From the IMG/VR virus record IMGVR_UViG_3300020421_000189, positions 1 through 20,113 of that record: DNA of 20,113 bases. One strand, written 5' to 3'. The notes below the pieces were generated by a model. That model searched no databases, was not told the origin of the DNA, and saw only the letters and a list, made by a program, of their open reading frames with translations. Both the position numbers and the translations under genes were made by a program. Every line of letters begins with the position of its first letter. Within the stretch, counting starts at the first letter, position 1. Positions 3,611 to 13,800 of this stretch are shown in pieces. This DNA comes from a virus.

Positions 3611-5263
3611 ATGGCTCTCAAGTTTTTTGACAGAACCAAACAAGATGCCACAACTTCTGGAACTGGCACTTTTACCCTTTCTGGTACAGCGGCTGATGGT
3701 GGGTTTAGAACATTTGCCTCTGTCCATGCTAGTGGTGATGAAGTATTTTACTGTGCTGTTGACAGCTCTAGTGGTAATTTTGAAGTTGGCCAAGGAACTC
3801 TTACATCCGGAGGTAACTGGACTTTAACTCGTGACATAGTTAAAAGCTCAACCAACTCAAACAACAAAGTTAATTTTGCCTCACCACCAGAAATATTCTC
3901 TACATATCCAGCTGAAAACGCTGCTTTTTCTGATACAAATCTTTCAAATAATGTTGTTGAAACAGACGCTGTTTTTGACGAAACATTAACATCTAACAAA
4001 GCTCTTAGTGGTCAATTTAAAGGTACTCTTCAATTTAACAAAGCGTTCTTTACTATTACTGATTATACAGTTGCATCAGGTCAAACATTAACTGTTACTG
4101 ATAGTGCTGATTTATACGCTGTTGATATAGCCTCTGGAACAGTTATGGATAGAACAGCAGATTTTACTGATGATGTAACTATTTCTTCCGATACTATGTT
4201 TTCACCAGGTATTAATGCTTACGCTACTGTTACAATAGCAAATAACGTAAAAGCCACTGTTTCTCCTGTAGGAACAACTTTTGTAAATAATGGCGCAGGT
4301 ATAACAACAGGTGGCCCAATATCATGGAAACTACCAACAACAGATGGAGCTGCTAACACAGAAATTGTTACAAATGGTAGAGGTGGCTTTGCTATTAAAG
4401 GTGCGATTACTTCTGCTGGAGGCGTTGCCGTTGCTTCTCCAACAACAGAAGTTCATATTTCTACATTTGATTATAACTCTTACAGTCCCTCATCTCCTAT
4501 ACAATCATTAGAATGTATAGTTCCAACTAGCGTTGCAGCTACACCTGATTTAATAGAAAACTTTACAATTAAATTTTATTTTTTAAATTTTGGGCAACCA
4601 GATCAATCAAATCAAAGACAAGAAACTATGACATGGTTTATAGCTCCTCTATCAGCAGCTGGTGGTGATCCTATCCTTGATAGCACTTCTGCTCAATATT
4701 ATGGAGCTTTTCGTTGGAATTATGGGTATAATAATAGCTGGAATCAAAGTTTTCCTCTTGGATATAGCCGTAAAGGTGCAAGTGTAACTGTTAGCAATGG
4801 AACATACGATTGTGATACTTATGGTTTAAATATATTTGGTTATCAAGGTAATCCTCAATTAGCTTCTCTAGGTAATTCTAGTTATTATGGTCCTGATATG
4901 GCCAATAATCCCTTCAGTGTATCATCGGCTAACGCACAGTATAACAGAACTGATTTATGTGGTGAAATGAATCTTTTTAATAGAATAGATTCTTTAGATA
5001 GCTCTTATGATTTAAGATGGGGTGGTTATCAAGGTAATTATCAACAACAACCATATAGAATAACTGGTTATACAAGACCACAGGGAAACAACAACAATAC
5101 TGCTTATAACGTTACCACTGGTCATGCTCGAGGTTTTCGATTAAATTTTCTTCCTTATGATAAAAATTATTTAACTGGTTCTTCTATGTTTGGAATGATT
5201 GGAGGAAGAGTAGAAGTTTTTGCACATCTTAAACAATCTGCCGCGGAAATAACAGTAGCATGA
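3611..5263 (+). CDS. Tail fibre / receptor-binding-type protein, 550 aa
   Basis: The ATG follows a purine-rich AAAAGGAAAGG. Residues 1-105 form an N-terminal domain I recognise from many phage fibre proteins (MALKFFDRTKQDATTSGTGT start; VGQGTLTSGGNWTLTRDIVK; EIFSTYPAE), likely the virion-attachment module. Residues about 130-270 are a Thr/Asn-rich beta stretch with repeated short strands (TVTIANNVKATVSPVG), suggesting a fibrous or beta-helical shaft. The rest is rich in Tyr, Asn, Gln and Gly, typical of distal host-contact domains, and ends RVEVFAHLKQSAAEITVA. A fibre role is well supported by composition, N-terminal module and neighbours; the receptor is unknown. Confidence 0.8.
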   Translation: MALKFFDRTKQDATTSGTGTFTLSGTAADGGFRTFASVHASGDEVFYCAVDSSSGNFEVGQGTLTSGGNWTLTRDIVKSSTNSNNKVNFASPPEIFSTYPAENAAFSDTNLSNNVVETDAVFDETLTSNKALSGQFKGTLQFNKAFFTITDYTVASGQTLTVTDSADLYAVDIASGTVMDRTADFTDDVTISSDTMFSPGINAYATVTIANNVKATVSPVGTTFVNNGAGITTGGPISWKLPTTDGAANTEIVTNGRGGFAIKGAITSAGGVAVASPTTEVHISTFDYNSYSPSSPIQSLECIVPTSVAATPDLIENFTIKFYFLNFGQPDQSNQRQETMTWFIAPLSAAGGDPILDSTSAQYYGAFRWNYGYNNSWNQSFPLGYSRKGASVTVSNGTYDCDTYGLNIFGYQGNPQLASLGNSSYYGPDMANNPFSVSSANAQYNRTDLCGEMNLFNRIDSLDSSYDLRWGGYQGNYQQQPYRITGYTRPQGNNNNTAYNVTTGHARGFRLNFLPYDKNYLTGSSMFGMIGGRVEVFAHLKQSAAEITVA

Positions 5264-5305
5264 TAATTTGCAATACAATAAAATATAGGTTAAAAAGGTA
5301 ATATT

Positions 5306-6145
5306 ATGGCATCGTTAATAAAAACAAATAAAATAAGTACTCCAGGCGGGGAAGAGTTTACACTGCCTACAACTTATCCTAGTTCTACAGTTGATTTAAC
5401 ATCAACAAGTGGTGGTCAATTAGGTTACGGAACGGCTAATCCTATTGTTCAAAATATGTCTACATCAACAGGTAAAATTGCAGAACGTTTTTGTGATAAA
5501 TTAAGAGTAAATAATTCATCTAGCACTGTTGCAAATGCAACATTAAGTGCTTTACCATCTGATGTAACAGACGTATCAAGCATCGTTAGAACTCAAGTAG
5601 ATTTTGCTGGAGTATGTTTTGTGGGAAATGCTACTCCTTATCTTCAATTATTAGATGCTAGTAATAATAATGTTATAGGTAATTCTTATTCTTACAAAGA
5701 AAGAAGACAAGAAAATTATTCATCTGGCAGTACTGGTACTTTAAATAATGCTACTAGTGGAACTGCTAATTCAAATGGTTTTAAATTAACCTACACTCAA
5801 GCAGTAGTAGGTGCTTCTAAAAGTGGAGAAATTTTTACAAAAACTGCTAATGAAAATGACTTAGGTTTAATGTGTGGATATATTACTATAAGTCAATACA
5901 ATACGTCAGATGGGGCTGGAATAGAAGATAATGCAATGTTAATAGAAAGTTGTATTAATTATAATTATAATGGTACTTACACTAGCTCAACTAGGGGTTG
6001 TATAGTTCATAAATGGGTTAGATATTACAATACAAGCGGAGCTACTATTAATCCATACACACAAATTAAAATTTATGATTTAAGTGGAAATAATATAAGT
6101 GAAGGTATGTTTACAACATATTCTTATATTAACGTAAATAAATAA
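5306..6145 (+). CDS. Fibre-like paralogue 1 with conserved N-terminal leader, 279 aa
   Basis: The N-terminus (TNKISTPGGEEFTLPTTYPS within residues 7-26) matches those of the next two genes in order and spacing: T(N/D)KI, then about 11 residues, then LP.T.PS. This shared leader is probably the attachment segment. The remainder is Asn/Thr/Ser/Tyr-rich beta sequence, with RGCIVHKWVRYYNTSGA near residues 230-246, resembling RGCIRYYNGAG in the following gene. AAAAGG lies about 8 nt upstream of the ATG. The upstream gap of 42 nt holds no convincing promoter. I infer a short tail fibre or head/tail adhesin; the ligand is unknown. Confidence 0.75.
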   Translation: MASLIKTNKISTPGGEEFTLPTTYPSSTVDLTSTSGGQLGYGTANPIVQNMSTSTGKIAERFCDKLRVNNSSSTVANATLSALPSDVTDVSSIVRTQVDFAGVCFVGNATPYLQLLDASNNNVIGNSYSYKERRQENYSSGSTGTLNNATSGTANSNGFKLTYTQAVVGASKSGEIFTKTANENDLGLMCGYITISQYNTSDGAGIEDNAMLIESCINYNYNGTYTSSTRGCIVHKWVRYYNTSGATINPYTQIKIYDLSGNNISEGMFTTYSYINVNK

Positions 6146-6156
6146 GGTAATAAAAA

Positions 6157-7017
6157 ATGACAGTTAGAACAGATAAAATACAATCATTAACAGGATCAGC
6201 TCCTTTAACTTTGCCTAAAACTCTTCCCTCTTCAAAAACAAATTTAAAAGTAGATTCTTCAGGTAATATGACAACTAGCTCAGCTAGTCCTAGTTTTTCA
6301 TCTTTAGGTAAAGCTGGTGAAACAGGATGGGTTCTTTTAGGTAGTACACAAACAAATGATTGGACCAATGGATGTGAAGTAAGTATTGAAGGAAGTGGAT
6401 ATAGTGGTTCAGATATATATGTCTATAGAATAGAATTTGATATTGAAGGTAATAGACAAAATGGTAATAATATGAGATTTGATTTAGCTCCTTACGCTGG
6501 TACTACTAACATATCGAATCAAACTTTTACTAATAATGGTTTTAAAAATATGGATAATTCCATGTCTAATAGCACTAATGCCACCGGCGCTCAAACAGGT
6601 GCAGCTGGATATGAACTTTATATGGCTTATAATATTTCTGGAAATTCTAACAGTACTTATGATTATGAATCTATGTTTGATCCATCTATAGTTAATGAAA
6701 ATTACTCTTATAGAGGAGGTATGAGAGGCTGTATAAGATATTACAACGGAGCAGGAATGAGAGCTTCTTTTGCAGATCCTGTTGGTATGTATTGGGATGA
6801 ATGGGATTCATCTCGCTACAATAGCAATCAAGCATATTATTGGATGCAAGTTGTTAGAAGATCACAAACTGCGTACGATAACCCATCAAATTCTTCGTTT
6901 GCAGATAAATTTAGAATACATAATTCATCTTACTCACAAGATAATGGTGGATCAGGAAATACTTCTTATTATCAAAGAGGTATGATGACTCTTTATGGAA
7001 TACCAAAAACCGGTTAA
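6157..7017 (+). CDS. Fibre-like paralogue 2 with conserved N-terminal leader, 286 aa
   Basis: Begins MTVRTDKIQSLTGSAPLTLP and continues with TLPSSKTNLKVDSSGNMTTS, the same leader as its two neighbours. The body has a beta-sandwich-like pattern (SDIYVYRIEFDIEGN, then NNMRFDLAPYAG) and many Asn, Ser, Tyr and Gly. It ends YYQRGMMTLYGIPKTG; a terminal (L)YGI strand is common at the C-terminus of phage fibre head domains. The AAGG of its ribosome site overlaps the TAA stop of the preceding gene. No Cys pairs or enzymatic motif are seen. Role inferred: receptor-binding or decoration fibre. Confidence 0.75.
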   Translation: MTVRTDKIQSLTGSAPLTLPKTLPSSKTNLKVDSSGNMTTSSASPSFSSLGKAGETGWVLLGSTQTNDWTNGCEVSIEGSGYSGSDIYVYRIEFDIEGNRQNGNNMRFDLAPYAGTTNISNQTFTNNGFKNMDNSMSNSTNATGAQTGAAGYELYMAYNISGNSNSTYDYESMFDPSIVNENYSYRGGMRGCIRYYNGAGMRASFADPVGMYWDEWDSSRYNSNQAYYWMQVVRRSQTAYDNPSNSSFADKFRIHNSSYSQDNGGSGNTSYYQRGMMTLYGIPKTG

Positions 7018-7028
7018 GGAATAATAAT

Positions 7029-7925
7029 ATGTCAACATTAGCAACAAATAAAATAGGAACATTATCTGGTACAGCTGATATGTCTTTACCAACAACAAGA
7101 CCATCTCAAACATTATCAGCTTTTTTAGATTCTTCTGGAAACTTAACATTTGAAGAAACGTCTATTCCAGTAGAATTTTTTGTAGCAGACGGGACAGCAT
7201 TTGTTTCTTCTGTTCTAGTAGATACAGCTTACTTAACAAGTGCTGGTTGGACTTTAGATGCGTTAACAAATAGTAGTGGGCAAATTTATGGAGCCAGAGT
7301 AGGTATGTGGAATTTATCAGACGCAATTAAAACAAATTATCTTTTTCAAAAAAATTTAAGATGGTTTGAGTTAAATGCTTGGGGAGTTTCTACTGGAAGT
7401 AATAGTTCGTCTGACCTTTACATTCAATTATTAAATCCTACTGGAAATATGATGTATACTCAAGATCAAACCACGGCAAGGAAAGACTGTTCTCTATACT
7501 CAAGTAGTAGTACTGCTCAAGGCGGTTCTGGTACTGGGAATGGTTGGGTTGCTAGTAGTAGTGGTAATCAATATGGAACAGGCCTAATTTCTAAGGCAAT
7601 AGGCGAAGGTGATAGTGAGCCTCAGCCTTGGTCAGTAAGGGTTAGAGTATCAGCAAAAGTAAATTATGGTTTTAAAATAGATGCTGAAGGAACTATGTCT
7701 GAAGACCCTAACTATCCACCAGCCTGGTCTTATAGAACAGTTAGGCCTAAAGTTGATGAAGTTATATTAGCTGAATCTAATTTAGATAGAGGCGGTCCTT
7801 GGACTGATTTTGGTGGTTTTTATCTTGGAACTAGTGAACAAAGCACTAGTAAAAATACAACTGGGCAATTTGCATCTATAATTTTAAAAGCTCAAATAAA
7901 ACCAACAGCAGTTGTTACCGCATAA
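7029..7925 (+). CDS. Fibre-like paralogue 3 with conserved N-terminal leader, 298 aa
   Basis: The N-terminus (TNKIGTLSGTADMSLPTTRP, then FLDSSGNLTFE) is the clearest version of the leader shared with the two upstream genes. The body diverges completely from them and contains Trp-bearing beta segments (AGWTLDALTNSSGQIYGARV, LRWFELNAWGVSTGS) and a Ser/Gly-rich linker near residues 157-182. The C-terminal strand ASIILKAQIKPTAVVTA closes the domain. AAGGA at 7016-7020 overlaps the upstream stop. The pattern of conserved stem and unrelated tip is what fibre genes show when tips are exchanged; the specific receptor is unknown. Confidence 0.75.
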   Translation: MSTLATNKIGTLSGTADMSLPTTRPSQTLSAFLDSSGNLTFEETSIPVEFFVADGTAFVSSVLVDTAYLTSAGWTLDALTNSSGQIYGARVGMWNLSDAIKTNYLFQKNLRWFELNAWGVSTGSNSSSDLYIQLLNPTGNMMYTQDQTTARKDCSLYSSSSTAQGGSGTGNGWVASSSGNQYGTGLISKAIGEGDSEPQPWSVRVRVSAKVNYGFKIDAEGTMSEDPNYPPAWSYRTVRPKVDEVILAESNLDRGGPWTDFGGFYLGTSEQSTSKNTTGQFASIILKAQIKPTAVVTA

Positions 7926-7936
7926 AGAGGATTAGT

Positions 7937-8353
7937 ATGGCTTTACCAACAAAAAAAACTTTAACTAGAGGAAAAGTAAGTGTAAGAAACGAAAACTTTG
8001 AAAGAGTTTTGGTTGATGAAAGTGATGAAGAACTAGCTTTTCGTCAAGGTTTGCATGATGCATATATAGAAAATTATGTTTCAAATAAAATTAACAATTT
8101 TAACAATATGATTGATGACGTTCATAAGTCTTTTGATTGGACTCAGTTGGTTGACACCACTTTAACAGAAGACTCTCAAAAAGAATTTACAGATTATAGA
8201 GCTAATTTAAAAAAAATAGGAAAAAAATATTTTAATGCTAAAAACGAACCTTTAGATGTTAAAGATAATTTTTGGAATGAAAATTTTCCACTAGGAACTT
8301 TAGTTCCCGAACCACCAACCCCAGAATATAAACCAGAAGAAGAAAAGGAGTAA
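7937..8353 (+). CDS. Tail fibre assembly chaperone-like protein, 138 aa
   Basis: Directly follows the three fibre-like genes with AGAGGA upstream. The middle carries FDWTQLVDTTLTEDSQKEF followed by DYRANLKKIG and FWNENFP (residues 66-118). This closely follows the C-terminal signature of phage tail fibre assembly/chaperone proteins, where DW(T/S)xLxDxxLTxxxxxxWxxYRxxLRxI precedes a W-P segment. The C-terminus is Pro/Glu-rich (EPPTPEYKPEEEKE) and probably disordered. Such proteins help trimeric fibres fold or attach. Placement beside fibre genes agrees with this role. The N-terminal 65 residues are not recognised, so the call is fairly confident at the motif level only. Confidence 0.62.
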   Translation: MALPTKKTLTRGKVSVRNENFERVLVDESDEELAFRQGLHDAYIENYVSNKINNFNNMIDDVHKSFDWTQLVDTTLTEDSQKEFTDYRANLKKIGKKYFNAKNEPLDVKDNFWNENFPLGTLVPEPPTPEYKPEEEKE

Positions 8354-8398
8354 AATCAAATACTCGTATTTTCTTAAAGAATAGGATAATATAAAAAT

Positions 8399-9760
8399 AT
8401 GTTTGGTTTTAGTTCATTCGCACAAGATACCTTTGCATCATCAGGGTCAGGTCCTGTTAGTGTTACCGTTGATGCGACTGGAGTTGTTGGCACACTTACA
8501 TTAGGAAATGAAACAACATCATTTGACATGGTGTTTGATGTTACAGGATTTAATTTACAAACATCACTGGGAACTCCTCTTGTATTCGAGGGTACCACTG
8601 CAACTATTACACCTTTAAATGCCTTACAGTCATCTCTTGGAAACATTACTGTCTTTACAGGAATGTTTGTTAATGTAAATAACACAAACCTTCTAATGAC
8701 AGCAGAACTTGGTAATGCTGAAGCCAATTTACCTGTTCTTATAAATGCTACGTCACCAGGTGCTTTAACAGCTAATTTAGGTCAAGAAACAGTTATTGCT
8801 GGTAGTGTTATAGCTAAACCAAGACAAGATGAAACATTTAATGTAACCGTTGCAAATGGTGGTAGTGGTAATGTTTATTACATGAATTACTTTAAGCAGA
8901 CTACCGTTGATAGTTTGCATCCTCCATTTACATATAGATTTGATCAATCTGATTCTAGCAATGGTAATCATCCTTTAAGATTTTCTACAGTACCTGATGG
9001 TACACACGCAAGTAATGAAACATTTACCATTACCGTACAAAATGTTAATGGAGCAAATAAGTATTTTGTTAATGGCGTTCAACAACAAATGCCTATTGCC
9101 TTAAAAAAAGGCTCAACCTATAAATTTGATCAATCGGACAATACTAACAGTAATCATCCATTAAGACTTTCTACAACAGATAATGGCACTTGGGCTGGCG
9201 GATCAGAATATACTGACGGAGTTACAGTAGTAGGAGTACCGGGTCAAACTGGTGCTTATACACAAATTGTTGTAGCTAATAACGCTCCGTCTCAACTTTA
9301 TACTTATTGCACTAATCATAGTGGTATGGGCTTTGGTGTTCCAATTACAGAAGGTGTTGAGTATACAACAGGAGTTGTTAAAAACGGTGTGCCGGGAAAT
9401 CCTGGTGCTTATGTAGAGATAACACTAGCAGATGATACACCACAGCTGTATATATATTGTCAAAATCATAGTGGAATGGGCTTTAAGCTTGATCAAGATT
9501 ATAATGCTGAAATTATTGGAACAACTCAATTAAATAGTGTAATAATACAATCATCAGTATTTATTCAGGTTACAAATGCTGGTTTAGATACATTTGCTGA
9601 ACTAGCGGATGCATCAACGATAATAGTTTCTGGTTCGGCATTAGTAAGTCCAACAGGCGTGTCGGCTACAGGATTTATTTCTTCGAGTGACCCAGCTGTT
9701 AATGTTTGGGCCGTTATAAATGATTCACAAACGCCTGGATGGACGGAGATAGCAGCATAA
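8399..9760 (+). CDS. Virion adhesin-like protein with short beta repeats and two (apparently nested) cupredoxin-like units, 453 aa
   Basis: Residues 1-20 (MFGFSSFAQDTF start) resemble the N-termini of repeat-type structural proteins in marine phages. Residues about 21-140 hold five imperfect repeats of about 24 residues with an LxTxLGxxxV core. Residues 145-363 hold two cupredoxin-like units: His boxes at H191 and H253 (each in NHPLR(F/L)ST) and two CxxHxxM boxes, C304/H307/M310 and C354/H357/M360 (each in YC.NHSGMGF). The order is His, His, Cys, Cys, implying nesting or half-unit duplication. The end contains VSATGFISSSDPAVNVWAV and WTEIAA. The ligand set His...CxxHxxM is that of type-1 copper proteins, with amicyanin spacing; metal binding is inference. 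The ribosome site is weak (AGG at 8382-8384). The stop overlaps the next start (TAATG). Confidence 0.75.
   Translation: MFGFSSFAQDTFASSGSGPVSVTVDATGVVGTLTLGNETTSFDMVFDVTGFNLQTSLGTPLVFEGTTATITPLNALQSSLGNITVFTGMFVNVNNTNLLMTAELGNAEANLPVLINATSPGALTANLGQETVIAGSVIAKPRQDETFNVTVANGGSGNVYYMNYFKQTTVDSLHPPFTYRFDQSDSSNGNHPLRFSTVPDGTHASNETFTITVQNVNGANKYFVNGVQQQMPIALKKGSTYKFDQSDNTNSNHPLRLSTTDNGTWAGGSEYTDGVTVVGVPGQTGAYTQIVVANNAPSQLYTYCTNHSGMGFGVPITEGVEYTTGVVKNGVPGNPGAYVEITLADDTPQLYIYCQNHSGMGFKLDQDYNAEIIGTTQLNSVIIQSSVFIQVTNAGLDTFAELADASTIIVSGSALVSPTGVSATGFISSSDPAVNVWAVINDSQTPGWTEIAA
8459..8818 (+). repeat. Five imperfect ~24-residue coding repeats (LxTxLGxxxV type)
   Basis: Within the 8399 gene, residues about 21-140 contain units centred on ATGVVGTLTL, LQTSLGTPLV, LQSSLGNITV, LMTAELGNAEANLPV and LTANLGQETV. 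The spacing is about 22-27 residues. One further relative, VSATGFISSSDPAVNV, occurs near the C-terminus (residues 421-436). The repeats are protein-level; the DNA copies have diverged. Confidence 0.6.
9314..9484 (+). repeat. Direct repeat of the CxxHxxM box at both DNA and protein level
   Basis: The 21-nt segments 9314-9334 and 9464-9484 (both AATCATAGTGGnATGGGCTTT) differ at a single base and lie 150 nt apart in the same frame. They encode NHSGMGF. The matching His-box segments near 8969 and 9155 are also alike (TTTGATCAATC upstream of AATCATCC). This supports an origin by internal duplication. Confidence 0.75.
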
Positions 9761-11205
9761 TGGCAAGTACATATTCAAATTCTTTACGATTAGAACTTAT
9801 GGCAACCGGAGAACAAGCTGGTACTTGGGGTTCAACTACTAATAGAAACTTAGGAACTTTGTTGGAACAAGCAATTTCTGGTGTAGAAACAATAACAATT
9901 ACTGGAAATACAACTCTTTCAACTAATAACGGACAAGTAGATCAATCAAGAAATGCAGTTTTAGAAGTTAATGGGTCAATAGGCTCTGCTGCTTCTATAT
10001 TTATTCCTGCTCAAGAAAAAATATATATTGTTAAAAATTCTACAACAGGTGGTCACGATATAAATGTACAGGTTGCTGGCCCTACAGGGTCTGCTGTAGC
10101 TATTCCTAATGGAAAAACAGGTATTGTTTATAGTACAGGGTCAAACGTTAATTTAGCTTCTAATTTTGCAGATACTTTTGATATGGGTAATATACGCATT
10201 ACAGGAAATACAATTAGTTCTACTAATACAAATGGTAATATTGCTATTGAACCTAATGGTAATGGCACCGTAAATGTAAGTAAAAATTTAAACGCTGCAA
10301 GTAACCTTACAGTAACAGGAGTAACAACTCTTAACGGAAACACAACAATTGGTGATAATACATCTGATGTAACAACAATTAATAGTAACACTATAACTAC
10401 CCCTAATGGTCTAAATTTTGACACAAACACTCTTGTTTTAAATCAAACAAATAATCGTATAGGTATAGGCCAACAAAATCCTTCATCTTCACTACATGTT
10501 TCTGGAAGAACTATAACGGATGACTTAACTATTGGTGGTACTGGTGGTTATCAATTACCAAGTAGTTCTGGAACAACTAGTCAAATCTTACAAATGAACA
10601 GTTCTGGTAATATGCAATTTGTTGATATTGGTAGTATTGGAGCATGGTCTACTGTAGGAAAAGCTACTAGTGCTGGTGCAAACTCTATGACAGTTTTTAG
10701 TGCCACAAGTTATGATATTTATTGGGCTGTATTTAGATTACTTTATGACACTGCTATTGCTACTGACTTTAGAGTTGGTTTAGTAGATTCTGGAGGAACA
10801 AGAGTTTCTGCTAGTAATATATTTAATAATAGTTATATCTATCAAGATGTTTCCAGTGCTGGAACTGTTAGCTCTACAGCTGTTAAAGTTTCTGGTGTTG
10901 CTGATGCTATTATTGCTTCATCACCCGCTCCAAGCACAAGCACAGAAGTTGTTGTCGAAGGTACAGTGTATTTAGTGCGTGCGCCAGGATATAGCACTGG
11001 TCAAAACTATTATGGAAATGCTCAAGCAACTTCTACAAAAGACGGTGGTGCTTCTGGCAATATAGATCAAACAACTCAGAGTTATTTTAAAGAAGCATCT
11101 GCAAACTCTACTGCTGTTTTTGGTTTAATATTTACACAACAAGGTGGTAATACTTTAAAATCAGGATCTCGTGTAGATGTTTATGGTGCATCTTTCCCAT
11201 CATAA
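9760..11205 (+). CDS. Long tail fibre protein with conserved N-terminal module, 481 aa
   Basis: I place the start at ATG 9760 (MASTYSNSLRLELMATGEQA), not the in-frame ATG at 9739. The 9760 start makes the usual TAATG overlap and begins exactly where the conserved N-terminus of this fibre family begins (LRLEL..TGEQ.GTWG..TN.NLG). CGGAG at 9744-9748 serves as ribosome site. Residues about 140-225 are shaft-like beta repeats (GNTTIG, GNTISSTNTNGNIAIEPNGN). A neck segment RIGIGQQNPSSSLHVSG (233-249) resembles the GIG...P...LHVSG necks of trimeric adhesins. Then comes YQLPSSSGTTSQILQMNSSG and a C-terminal beta domain (YDIYWAVFRLLYD) ending SGSRVDVYGASFPS. Probably a trimeric tail fibre that contacts the host. 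Confidence 0.82.
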   Translation: MASTYSNSLRLELMATGEQAGTWGSTTNRNLGTLLEQAISGVETITITGNTTLSTNNGQVDQSRNAVLEVNGSIGSAASIFIPAQEKIYIVKNSTTGGHDINVQVAGPTGSAVAIPNGKTGIVYSTGSNVNLASNFADTFDMGNIRITGNTISSTNTNGNIAIEPNGNGTVNVSKNLNAASNLTVTGVTTLNGNTTIGDNTSDVTTINSNTITTPNGLNFDTNTLVLNQTNNRIGIGQQNPSSSLHVSGRTITDDLTIGGTGGYQLPSSSGTTSQILQMNSSGNMQFVDIGSIGAWSTVGKATSAGANSMTVFSATSYDIYWAVFRLLYDTAIATDFRVGLVDSGGTRVSASNIFNNSYIYQDVSSAGTVSSTAVKVSGVADAIIASSPAPSTSTEVVVEGTVYLVRAPGYSTGQNYYGNAQATSTKDGGASGNIDQTTQSYFKEASANSTAVFGLIFTQQGGNTLKSGSRVDVYGASFPS

Positions 11206-11213
11206 GGTGACTA

Positions 11214-13298
11214 ATGGCGTTAGAAAATATACAGTTTAAACAAGGTGTTGTAAAAGATGGCACACGTTACACCAATAAAGGCGGTTGGTACGATTCAGAT
11301 AAAGTAAGATTTCGTTATGGTTTTCCAGAAAAAATAGGTGGATGGGAAAAAAGAGGTAACTCAACTTTTCAAGGCATTTGCCGTAGTTTAAATCAGTGGG
11401 CTGCTATTGATGGTTCACAGTTTATTGGTGTTGGAACTAATTTAAAATTTTATATTTCTGTTGGTGAAGCTTATAATGATATCACACCTATTCGATCAAC
11501 TGGAAACATTAACAATCCTTTTACAACAACAAGTGGATCAACTTTAGTAAATGTTACCGATACGGGACATAACGCTCAAGCTAATGACTTTGTTACTTTT
11601 TCTGGGTCAAGTGCTGTTGGTGGTATAGCTGCCGCTGATTTTAACAAAGAACAACAAATTGTAACTGTTATTGATAATGATAATTATACAATAAATGTAG
11701 ATAATGCAGCTAGCTCTAACGCTGGACCTGGCGGTGGAACGGTTACAGCGACGTATCAAATAAACACAGGATCAACAGATTATACAGCTGGTGTAGGTTT
11801 TGGAGCTGGTTTTTGGGGTGGAACACAAATAGGTGTTGCGACAACAGTTTCTACAGGAACTACATCTAACTCTGCAACTACAATAAATGCATCATCTACA
11901 ACTGGTTTTACAACAAACGGAACAATACTTATTGGAGAAGAACTAGTAACTTACACAGGAAAAACAGCTGGAAGTTTTACAGGTTGTACACGAGGTCAAT
12001 CTGGGACTACAGCAGCTTCTCATAGTGCAAGTACAACTATACAACAAGCTGATACTTTTATTGGATGGGGTAATGCGGCAACATCATTGACTGATGGTCA
12101 ACAATTACGTTTATGGGGTAAAGATAATTTTGGTGAAGATTTAGTCTTTAACGTACAAAATGGTGGTGTTTATTATTGGGATAAATCAACCAATGTAACA
12201 TCAAGAGCAATACCTTTGTCTACTATACCGGGTGCTGATTCTCAAGCACCTACTTTTGCTACACAAGTTCTTGTAAGTGAATTAGGAAAACATGTTGTTT
12301 GTTTAGGGGCTAATCCTGTTGGCTCAACAACGCAAGACCCTATGTTAATTAGATGGTCTGACACAGAAGATCCATCTACATGGGAAGTTCTTAATGGTAA
12401 TTCCGCTGGTGATTATAGATTATCTTCTGGCAGTAAAATTATTGGAGCAATAAAAACAAGACAAGAAATTATTATTTGGACCGACACTTCTTTATATGCC
12501 ATGTCTTATACTGGTACTAACTTTGTGTTTAGTTTTAGTTTAATAGCTGAAGGTACTTCTATTATTAGTCCTAATGCTGCTGTTAACGCTAATAACGTTA
12601 TTTACTTTGCTGACAATGAAAACTTCTATGTGTATGACGGCAGTGTTCGTACGCTTCCATGTACTGTAAGAAATTATGTTTTTGATGATATTAATATATC
12701 ACAACGTTATAAAATATTTGCTGGTCGTAATGAAAACTTTAATGAAGTTTCTTGGTATTATCCAAGCGCTGACTCTACTGAAGTAAATCGCTATGTTACA
12801 TTTAACTATGTTGATAATACTTGGGTTGTAGGAACTTTAGACAGAACTGCTTGGGATGATGTAGGAACGTCAGTAACTAATCCAATTGCTGCTGGCACAA
12901 ATAACTACTTATATAATCAAGAAACAGGTGACGATGATGATGGATCACCTATGATAGCCTTTATAGAATCAAGTGATGTTGACATAGGTGCTGGTAATCA
13001 AATTATGTTTATAAGACGTATTTTACCTGATGTATTTTTTTACGGAACAAATGCTACTCAGTCTTTAGATTTAACGGTAAAAGTTAGAGACTTTGGCTCT
13101 AGTTTAAATCAACCAACAACAGACCAAACATTTACTTTTCAAACAAACGCTTCTAATACTGGAGATACTGGAAGCCAAGAATTATATTCACGCATAAGGA
13201 GTAGACAAGCTATCTTTAAGTTTGAAACAAATACACTAGGACAGCAGTGGAGACTTGGCGGAATACGTTTAGATATGAGAGCGGACGGCAGAAGATGA
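11214..13298 (+). CDS. Tail nozzle / packaged-DNA stabilisation protein, P22 gp10-like, 694 aa
   Basis: The N-terminus (KQGVVKDGTRYTNKGGWYDS, then KVRFRYGFPEKIGGWEKRG) and later segments (MLIRWSDTEDPSTW at 377-390, IIIWTDTSLYAMSYTG, IYFADNENFYVYDG, VTFNYVDNTWVVG, and the end WRLGGIRLDMRADGRR) fit the gp10-like nozzle family. That family forms the tail tube end and holds packaged DNA. P22 gp10 has 472 residues. The excess here is mostly two inserts: about 103-183 (VTFSGSSAVGGI...NYTINV) and about 208-280 (a module with GTILIGEELVTYTGK and CTRGQSGTTAASH, common in phage structural proteins). AAGGTGA overlaps the preceding stop. The last 4 nt (ATGA) overlap the next start. Confidence 0.8.
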   Translation: MALENIQFKQGVVKDGTRYTNKGGWYDSDKVRFRYGFPEKIGGWEKRGNSTFQGICRSLNQWAAIDGSQFIGVGTNLKFYISVGEAYNDITPIRSTGNINNPFTTTSGSTLVNVTDTGHNAQANDFVTFSGSSAVGGIAAADFNKEQQIVTVIDNDNYTINVDNAASSNAGPGGGTVTATYQINTGSTDYTAGVGFGAGFWGGTQIGVATTVSTGTTSNSATTINASSTTGFTTNGTILIGEELVTYTGKTAGSFTGCTRGQSGTTAASHSASTTIQQADTFIGWGNAATSLTDGQQLRLWGKDNFGEDLVFNVQNGGVYYWDKSTNVTSRAIPLSTIPGADSQAPTFATQVLVSELGKHVVCLGANPVGSTTQDPMLIRWSDTEDPSTWEVLNGNSAGDYRLSSGSKIIGAIKTRQEIIIWTDTSLYAMSYTGTNFVFSFSLIAEGTSIISPNAAVNANNVIYFADNENFYVYDGSVRTLPCTVRNYVFDDINISQRYKIFAGRNENFNEVSWYYPSADSTEVNRYVTFNYVDNTWVVGTLDRTAWDDVGTSVTNPIAAGTNNYLYNQETGDDDDGSPMIAFIESSDVDIGAGNQIMFIRRILPDVFFYGTNATQSLDLTVKVRDFGSSLNQPTTDQTFTFQTNASNTGDTGSQELYSRIRSRQAIFKFETNTLGQQWRLGGIRLDMRADGRR

Positions 13299-13471
13299 CA
13301 CAAGTACCTGAACAAGTTCTTACTAAAACAACCTTATCATTGCCAGGAGATGCATACGAACAGTCTTATTTTCGTAGGTTAGTTGGTGATATTCAAAGAA
13401 TTTTTAACAGTATACAGACACCTACGGAGGCAAGAGAATCATCTGAAAGTTTTTCTTGGTTTATTAATTAA
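13295..13471 (+). CDS. Small conserved protein following the nozzle gene, 58 aa
   Basis: The start is taken at ATG 13295, which makes an ATGA overlap with the nozzle gene stop; an upstream in-frame ATG at 13247 lies well inside that gene and is unlikely. The 58-residue product contains LPGDAYEQSYFRRLVGDIQR and ends SESFSWFIN. I recall short proteins with this helical FxRxLxxxIxRxFNxIxTP-type stretch in podovirus-like marine phages next to the gp10-like gene; the role is unknown. Tight coupling to its neighbours argues for a virion or assembly function. Confidence 0.72.
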   Translation: MTQVPEQVLTKTTLSLPGDAYEQSYFRRLVGDIQRIFNSIQTPTEARESSESFSWFIN

Positions 13472-13800
13472 TGGCAAGTGCTTACTTAAATGTTGTTAAA
13501 AATGGTTTAAGTTCTGGTAATACGGATATTTATGTTTGTCCAACTGGTGGACAAGCTATCATTAAAGTAGTAAATATATATAATACCACTGGTGGTGCTG
13601 TTAATTCTACTGTAAGTGTCTTTGACAGTTCTACAAACACGACAGGTATATGGGATACGAGTTCAGTTGCTGCAACAACGCAAGAAGGAGTTCTTCAAAA
13701 CGGAGAAGTTATTAACCTGGAAGCAGGTGATAAATTAATAATTAATGCTGGTACAGGAACAGCACTAGATGTTATTGTATCATTATTGCAGATAACGTGA
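13471..13800 (+). CDS. Small beta-sandwich-like virion protein, 109 aa
   Basis: TAATG overlap fixes the start. The sequence is almost all beta-type: SAYLNVVKNGLSSGNTDIYV, QAIIKVVNIYNTTGGAVNST, a short Trp-containing turn GIWDTSS, then VINLEAGDKLIINAGTG and a final strand DVIVSLLQIT. The layout (interface strands, N-T-G-G turn, 'L.aGD.l.i..gt') resembles small jelly-roll-like phage structural proteins. No Cys pair, signal peptide or enzymatic motif is seen. It likely belongs to the tail or fibre attachment structure, by position between the nozzle and ejection genes; this is inference. Confidence 0.75.
   Translation: MASAYLNVVKNGLSSGNTDIYVCPTGGQAIIKVVNIYNTTGGAVNSTVSVFDSSTNTTGIWDTSSVAATTQEGVLQNGEVINLEAGDKLIINAGTGTALDVIVSLLQIT

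Follow-up and report, generated by a model that had tools for sequence, protein, structure and literature searches.

Gene layout at the locus

The window analysed here, i.e. the whole stretch of 20,113 bases, is the entire virus record IMGVR_UViG_3300020421_000189. Three of its genes, called A, B and C here, lie head to tail on the plus strand with spacers of 11 bp between the ORFs. An earlier note on this DNA had taken them (5306-7925) as the unit of interest. These limits are too narrow, as the unit that behaves jointly extends from the middle of g3611 (about 4000-4330) to about 8398, and we refer to it as the cassette. The features are the following.

3611..4330, plus strand: N-terminal part of g3611, read as the fibre base or trunk, with its last ~300-400 bp as the candidate left recombination anchor (DNA identity profile, homology to HTVC023P gp58)
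4331..5263, plus strand: variable C-terminal tip of g3611 (low amino acid identity between near-identical backbones)
5264..5431, plus strand: conserved intergenic segment together with leader A (MASLIKTNKISTPGGEEFTLPTTYPS...), with DNA conserved between divergent cassettes
5306..6145, plus strand: gene A, 279 aa, putative adhesin of a class-specific family; disordered leader 1-59, then a body predicted by AlphaFold as an 11-strand beta-sandwich
6157..7017, plus strand: gene B, 286 aa, putative adhesin of a class-specific family; leader 6157-6282 (MTVRTDKIQSLTGSAPLTLP...)
7029..7925, plus strand: gene C, 298 aa, putative adhesin of a class-specific family; leader 7029-7154 (MSTLATNKIGTLSGTADMSLP...), body related to that of A by profile
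7937..8353, plus strand: g7937, probable tail-fibre/tail assembly chaperone and cassette member (phrog_4697 and PF16778 matches; co-variation)
8354..8398, plus strand: 45-bp conserved intergenic element (CAAATACTCGTATTTTCTTAAAGAATAGGATAATATAA, with ATACTCGTAT inside), the candidate right anchor (DNA identity across divergent backbones)
8399..9760, plus strand: g8399, backbone fibre gene directly outside the cassette (PHROG tail fibre matches; DNA identity recovers)

Internal repeats such as YCQNHSGMGF occur in g8399 (about 8827-9327), whose middle portion varies in the related contig L008 and in other relatives, making a second and smaller variable spot outside the cassette.

Leaders and bodies of three gene families

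The leaders carry T(N/D)KI and LP.T.PS, and those of B and C also carry DSSGN(M/L), just as the earlier note described, and its claim of a common leader over ~45 residues is borne out. When the first 52 residues are aligned locally, the z scores are 8.7 (A-B), 8.7 (A-C) and 13.0 (B-C), none of which was reached by any of 2000 shuffles for each pair, and z is about 2 or less when the leaders are aligned with the five neighbouring genes tested as a control. The profile-profile comparison that the note had proposed finds the leaders related, with E values of 3e-7, 6e-7 and 2e-9 for A-B, A-C and B-C, respectively, using about 20 relatives per class. A mid-protein stretch (TIGGTGGYQLPSSSGTTSQILQMNSSGNMQFVD, residues about 262-294 of the fibre ORF 9739-11205) weakly resembles the second half of these leaders; a fourth leader copy in g9739/9760 (LPSSSGTTSQILQMNSSGNM, residues ~262-294) was considered and rejected, the E values being only 0.004-0.6 and the profile P 0.006.

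Viral contig scans started from each of the three genes in turn and from the alignments of their families jointly gave 27 related IMG/VR contigs, most of which were recovered from more than one seed gene; the seeds were leader, base-fibre or backbone peptides, so this set may miss cassettes with other leaders. When all ORFs were screened with a leader profile, every contig spanning the site proved to have three leader genes, ordered A-B-C. The mean amino acid identity of the leaders within a class is 84%, 75% and 75% for A, B and C, respectively, and 35-37% between classes. The leaders are thus class-specific. This suggests separate or ordered docking positions for the three leader classes and makes doubtful the single attachment site that had been proposed for all three proteins.

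The earlier note had considered the bodies diverged almost beyond recognition. This stands for single sequences (z of 1.1, 1.4 and 2.9 for B-C, A-C and A-B) and nearly so for the A-B and B-C family profiles, which are marginal (scores 18.6 and 18.8 vs best shuffles of 17.6 and 17.5), and it does not stand for A and C, whose bodies are related by family profile (score 40.5; none of 60 controls with shuffled columns exceeds 21.0). The profile of the g3611 tip is suggestive of a relation to the B body only (P 4e-4), those to A and C being not significant. The RGCI...RYYN motif, said to be common to the first two genes, turned out to be an accident of the window genome: in the A family alignment it is found in the window only, is degenerate in L003 and is missing from the other 15 members, and the part conserved in the B family is G..RYYNG only. 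Each body matches its own class best, with scores of at least 83 for its own class and at most 80 for another. Because the leaders are near-fixed within each class, the order is constant and the bodies fit their own class best, A, B and C are, as far as sequences can tell, three old position-fixed families and not one leader with interchangeable tips.

These families have no significant match in Pfam or PHROGs. The match of C to Endotoxin_C (E 0.057) is under the cut-off and was taken as chance. In tblastn searches of isolate phages, nothing matches A up to E 1, and the matches of B and C are attributable to chance. A has no confirmed match in cellular genomes (genome_contigs). At this sensitivity, neither source contains a relative that can be recognised.

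Farther relatives have other arrangements at the cassette site: one long fibre in L130, three g3611-like paralogues in L164 and none of these in L132. The paralogues in L164, a distant relative (10854-13548; also in L166), stand in tandem, correspond to the N-terminal base domain of g3611, occupy the same site and differ in their C-termini. A different g3611 N-terminus (40-45%) occurs in L117 (5079-5417), L118 (7703-8243) and L128 (10457-12149), whose backbones are close to that of the window or of L012 and whose contigs end inside. A cassette lacking A-B-C may lie behind this other type of g3611.

Exchange of the cassette between backbones

The window was compared with five contigs (L003, L008, L022, L023 and L031) whose backbone is 89-100% identical in DNA and whose upstream genes are 92-100% identical in amino acids. 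In these pairs most amino acid identities of the cassette products, from the g3611 tip through A-C to g7937, lie at 29-75%; the bodies of A, B and C fall in this same range, the g3611 tip is 35-67% identical between backbones 97-100% identical, and g7937 is 91% identical in L003. The DNA identity is ~0.9-1.0 upstream of 3930-4330, i.e. up to a point inside g3611, and then falls to ~0.5 (0.6-0.8 in L003). It peaks at each leader (0.64-0.96) and is back to 0.93-1.0 at 8327-8399, so that g8399 starts at 93-100% between near-identical backbones. The DNA of the cassette bodies is ~50% identical in L008 and L023 and 71-82% in L003, which has the closest allele, and the leaders and intergenic DNA are less diverged.

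The reverse case is also observed. The cassettes of L020 and L024 are 76-88% identical on backbones of 41-69%, and with the similar pair L004/L005 included the ranges are 66-88% and 41-74%, respectively. In L021/L023, A-B-C is 95-98% identical in DNA and the next gene 49%. Mantel-type tests on only 14 non-duplicate complete cassettes, some of the contigs being near copies, show that the cassette parts are mutually correlated (rho 0.53-0.71, permutation p 0.001), as are the backbone genes among themselves (rho 0.75, p 0.001), whereas cassette and backbone are not (rho 0.02-0.10, p > 0.2). Since the cassette parts correlate with each other and not with the backbone, and since reverse cases exist, the cassette alleles, from the g3611 tip through A-C to g7937, are, judged from these sequence comparisons, traded as a block between phages. 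The contigs are metagenome assemblies in which mosaic joins could be assembly errors, though the same anchors recur in independent samples.

The bodies change faster than the backbone genes in amino acid sequence. Their dN/dS is mostly 0.3-1.9 (4 in one low-divergence pair), and that of the backbone genes of close pairs is 0-0.23. Such values, which in some pairs reach or exceed 1, could be read as fast evolution in place with no exchange at all, driven by diversifying selection or by hypermutation, e.g. by a diversity-generating retroelement. However, divergent cassettes are close to random at their synonymous sites while the flanks are ~100% identical in DNA, and similar cassettes sit in divergent backbones. 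Variation produced by diversity-generating retroelements is confined to the adenines of the template, whereas the substitutions here are of all types and at all codon positions, with 52-71% involving A. On this spectrum retroelement hypermutation was rejected, and we hold evolution in place as a whole to be very improbable.

Another reading is the replacement of each tip independently downstream of a common leader, close to the duplication plus tip replacement that the earlier note had put forward. In its favour, the leaders and the DNA before them form islands of higher identity between divergent bodies, e.g. 75-96% DNA identity at 5264..5431 (pre-leader DNA plus leader A) where the cassette bodies are at ~50%. 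The identity at 4-fold sites is 0.54-0.69 in the leaders and 0.41-0.46 in the bodies, with 0.40 expected at random; because it is higher in the leaders, these may have a more recent shared ancestry than the bodies or be under nucleotide constraint, and the value is compatible with either recombination through the leaders or a constraint near the gene starts. Partial exchanges are also observed at the border of g3611 and A: the g3611 tip agrees and A differs in L007/L012 and L023/L030, and in L012/L016 the tip differs (52%) and A-B-C agree. These discordant pairs indicate that crossovers also occur between g3611 and A, and the tip usually moves with A-B-C and sometimes alone (L012/L016, L007/L012). 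Against independent replacement, no body of one class was found on the leader of another class in any of the related contigs, and in similar-cassette pairs the identities of the A, B and C bodies differ by no more than about 20 percentage points. We regard it as improbable. What survives of the earlier proposal is that the leaders are paralogous and that bodies are replaced between phages with the leaders kept; single-tip swaps at constant boundaries are not seen, as the order is fixed and the bodies fit their own class and change jointly with the g3611 tip and g7937. The note had set tip exchange against relatives that always carry the same three genes without it, and the relatives fall between the two, always carrying the same three classes with alleles exchanged as a block.

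The edges of the exchanged block can be located. Over nt 301-800 of g3611 the DNA identity is 94-97% in window/L004, where the upstream DNA is at 65%, and 92-94% in L023/L030, where it is at 64%. The 45-bp element is 96% identical in both pairs though g8399 is only 48-50% identical; it is single copy in the window and occurs once per contig at the 8354-8398 site. Its conservation might equally reflect a regulatory role of its own, and a promoter scan found no excess over shuffles, giving no support either way for such a role. The block would be swapped by homologous recombination with the left crossover in the conserved 5' part of g3611 and the right one in the 45-bp element, and leader A would supply the homology for the occasional partial exchange between g3611 and A.

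Block travel could also have a structural origin if A, B and C were the subunits of one hetero-oligomeric fibre with one copy per class. The fixed order and number, the class-specific leaders and C-termini, the co-varying bodies and the profile shared by the A and C bodies are in line with this, but the short distance between the genes would by itself give similar block travel, and we consider such a fibre possible though unlikely. We put forward, as a tentative idea with a similar standing, a three-slot array in which the leaders would serve both as class-specific plugs, ensuring that each assembly site receives a single protein of every class, and as DNA homology anchors; together with the 45-bp element they would let co-infecting phages trade the whole set across divergent backbones in one recombination.

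Predicted function and known systems

The AlphaFold model of A (pLDDT 71, pTM 0.71) has leader residues 1-59 disordered and the body as an 11-strand beta-sandwich. Its matches in BFVD are predicted phage proteins with E about 1e-9 to 1e-7, several of them annotated as tail fibre or collagen-repeat proteins, and those among solved structures in the PDB are weak and mainly galectin and legume-lectin sandwiches (Z <= 7.0). The model of B is poor (pLDDT 60, pTM 0.66), with lectin-like beta-sandwich matches at Z <= 5.5. The A and B bodies are thus predicted beta-sandwiches, and their PDB matches indicate a lectin-type beta-sandwich and nothing beyond that.

The g7937 protein matches phrog_4697, a tail assembly chaperone, with E 1.4e-4. 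In its family, 11 of the 15 members match Phage_tail_APC (PF16778) with E <= 0.01 (best 1.7e-5), the window protein itself scoring 18.4 bits against a curated cut-off of 26.6. It co-varies with the A, B and C bodies (rho 0.58-0.72), and we take it to be a probable tail-fibre/tail assembly chaperone that belongs to the cassette and might act on A-C. The N-terminus of g3611 is homologous to HTVC023P gp58 (48%); g3611 has no Pfam or PHROGs match, and no T4 gp10-like docking or branching domain was recognised in it.

The upstream neighbours of the cassette are connector-like structural genes. As A-C lie directly after them, and as short leader-type attachment peptides could suit a capsid site too, the three proteins might be capsid decoration or head fibres instead of tail adhesins. 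On the other side, however, the chaperone-like gene is accompanied by fibre genes and by a homologue of tail needle/stabilisation proteins, and the fold matches of A include tail-fibre proteins; we give a capsid or head location little credence. The fold of A, the chaperone-like g7937 co-varying with the bodies and the raised dN/dS of the bodies together support a reading of A-C as secondary tail adhesins that would be docked by their leaders and serve in host recognition. The three genes probably encode distinct tail proteins that grab the host, each fitted with its own matching plug. The fibre or adhesin character that the earlier note had assumed is supported by the phage-fibre matches of A in BFVD (E about 1e-9) and the tail context with a chaperone-like gene.

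We therefore favour, as the likely explanation, a host-recognition cassette exchanged as a block via conserved anchors. A, B and C would be three secondary receptor-binding proteins of a tailed marine phage, each docked on the virion by its class-specific N-terminal leader, most likely on the g3611 base fibre or the tail, with the beta-sandwich body binding the host surface. The variable g3611 tip, A-C and the chaperone-like g7937 would form one host-recognition cassette of ~4 kb.

Parts of this arrangement are known from other systems. Metaviromic islands are non-matching regions in near-identical marine phage genomes that hold fibre and carbohydrate-binding genes (Mizuno et al. 2014, PMC3909814), and their proteins have a conserved N-terminus and a variable C-terminus (PMC3909814). 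The exchange pattern of the A-B-C cassette is alike, being a dissimilar region between flanks of 89-100% DNA identity. Unlike the islands as described, it is an ordered cassette with three leader-bearing paralogue families, a base-fibre tip, a chaperone-like gene, anchors and concordance statistics. The branched receptor-binding systems of the K1-5, G7C and Klebsiella KP32 type combine an anchored fibre with secondary adhesins that have a short conserved N-terminal peptide and a variable body (PMC6872550). The short-leader architecture of the putative adhesins A-C resembles these, with leaders 75-84% identical within a class vs bodies averaging 24-31% in divergent pairs. The A-C leaders are longer (~40 aa) and of three homologous classes, however, the bodies are predicted beta-sandwiches and not depolymerases, and the gp10-like branching domain was not recognised in g3611 with the libraries used (Pfam, PHROGs). 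In distantly related Alteromonas phages a host-recognition module of one fibre and its cognate chaperone moves between unrelated backbones (PMC10579305). The chaperone-like g7937 likewise travels with the adhesin bodies, whereas the cassette here has a base tip plus three adhesins and is also exchanged among near-identical genomes.

HTVC023P-type pelagiphages have a base protein homologous to the g3611 N-terminus and, behind it, a tandem array of genes whose starts are of the M.E(I/V)K(T/V)NKI type. In HTVC023P these are gp59-gp62 (L034 2235-7931), four fibre-like genes in tandem that have short related starts and C-termini rich in glycine. The leader similarity is weak (E 5e-5 for gp62 in a six-sequence search, and E 3e-5 over 14 columns). 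The gp59-gp62 bodies are longer and glycine-rich and match phrog_2295 (E about 1e-45 to 1e-56), a PHROG that no member of the A, B or C family matches. HTVC023P, a cultured pelagiphage, is possibly a cultivable analogue of the A-B-C layout. What is new here is the fixed three-slot layout, the families absent from Pfam and PHROGs and the mapped anchors.

The 'variable tail region' thus becomes a defined and testable unit, with co-moving genes, crossover sites and constant short peptides. If the leaders are docking plugs, they would mark secondary adhesins of uncultured marine phages even where the bodies match nothing in the databases. Our analysis suggests that these marine phages change host by trading the three-gene set whole, and with such block exchange the prediction of hosts from backbone genes can fail in these phages.
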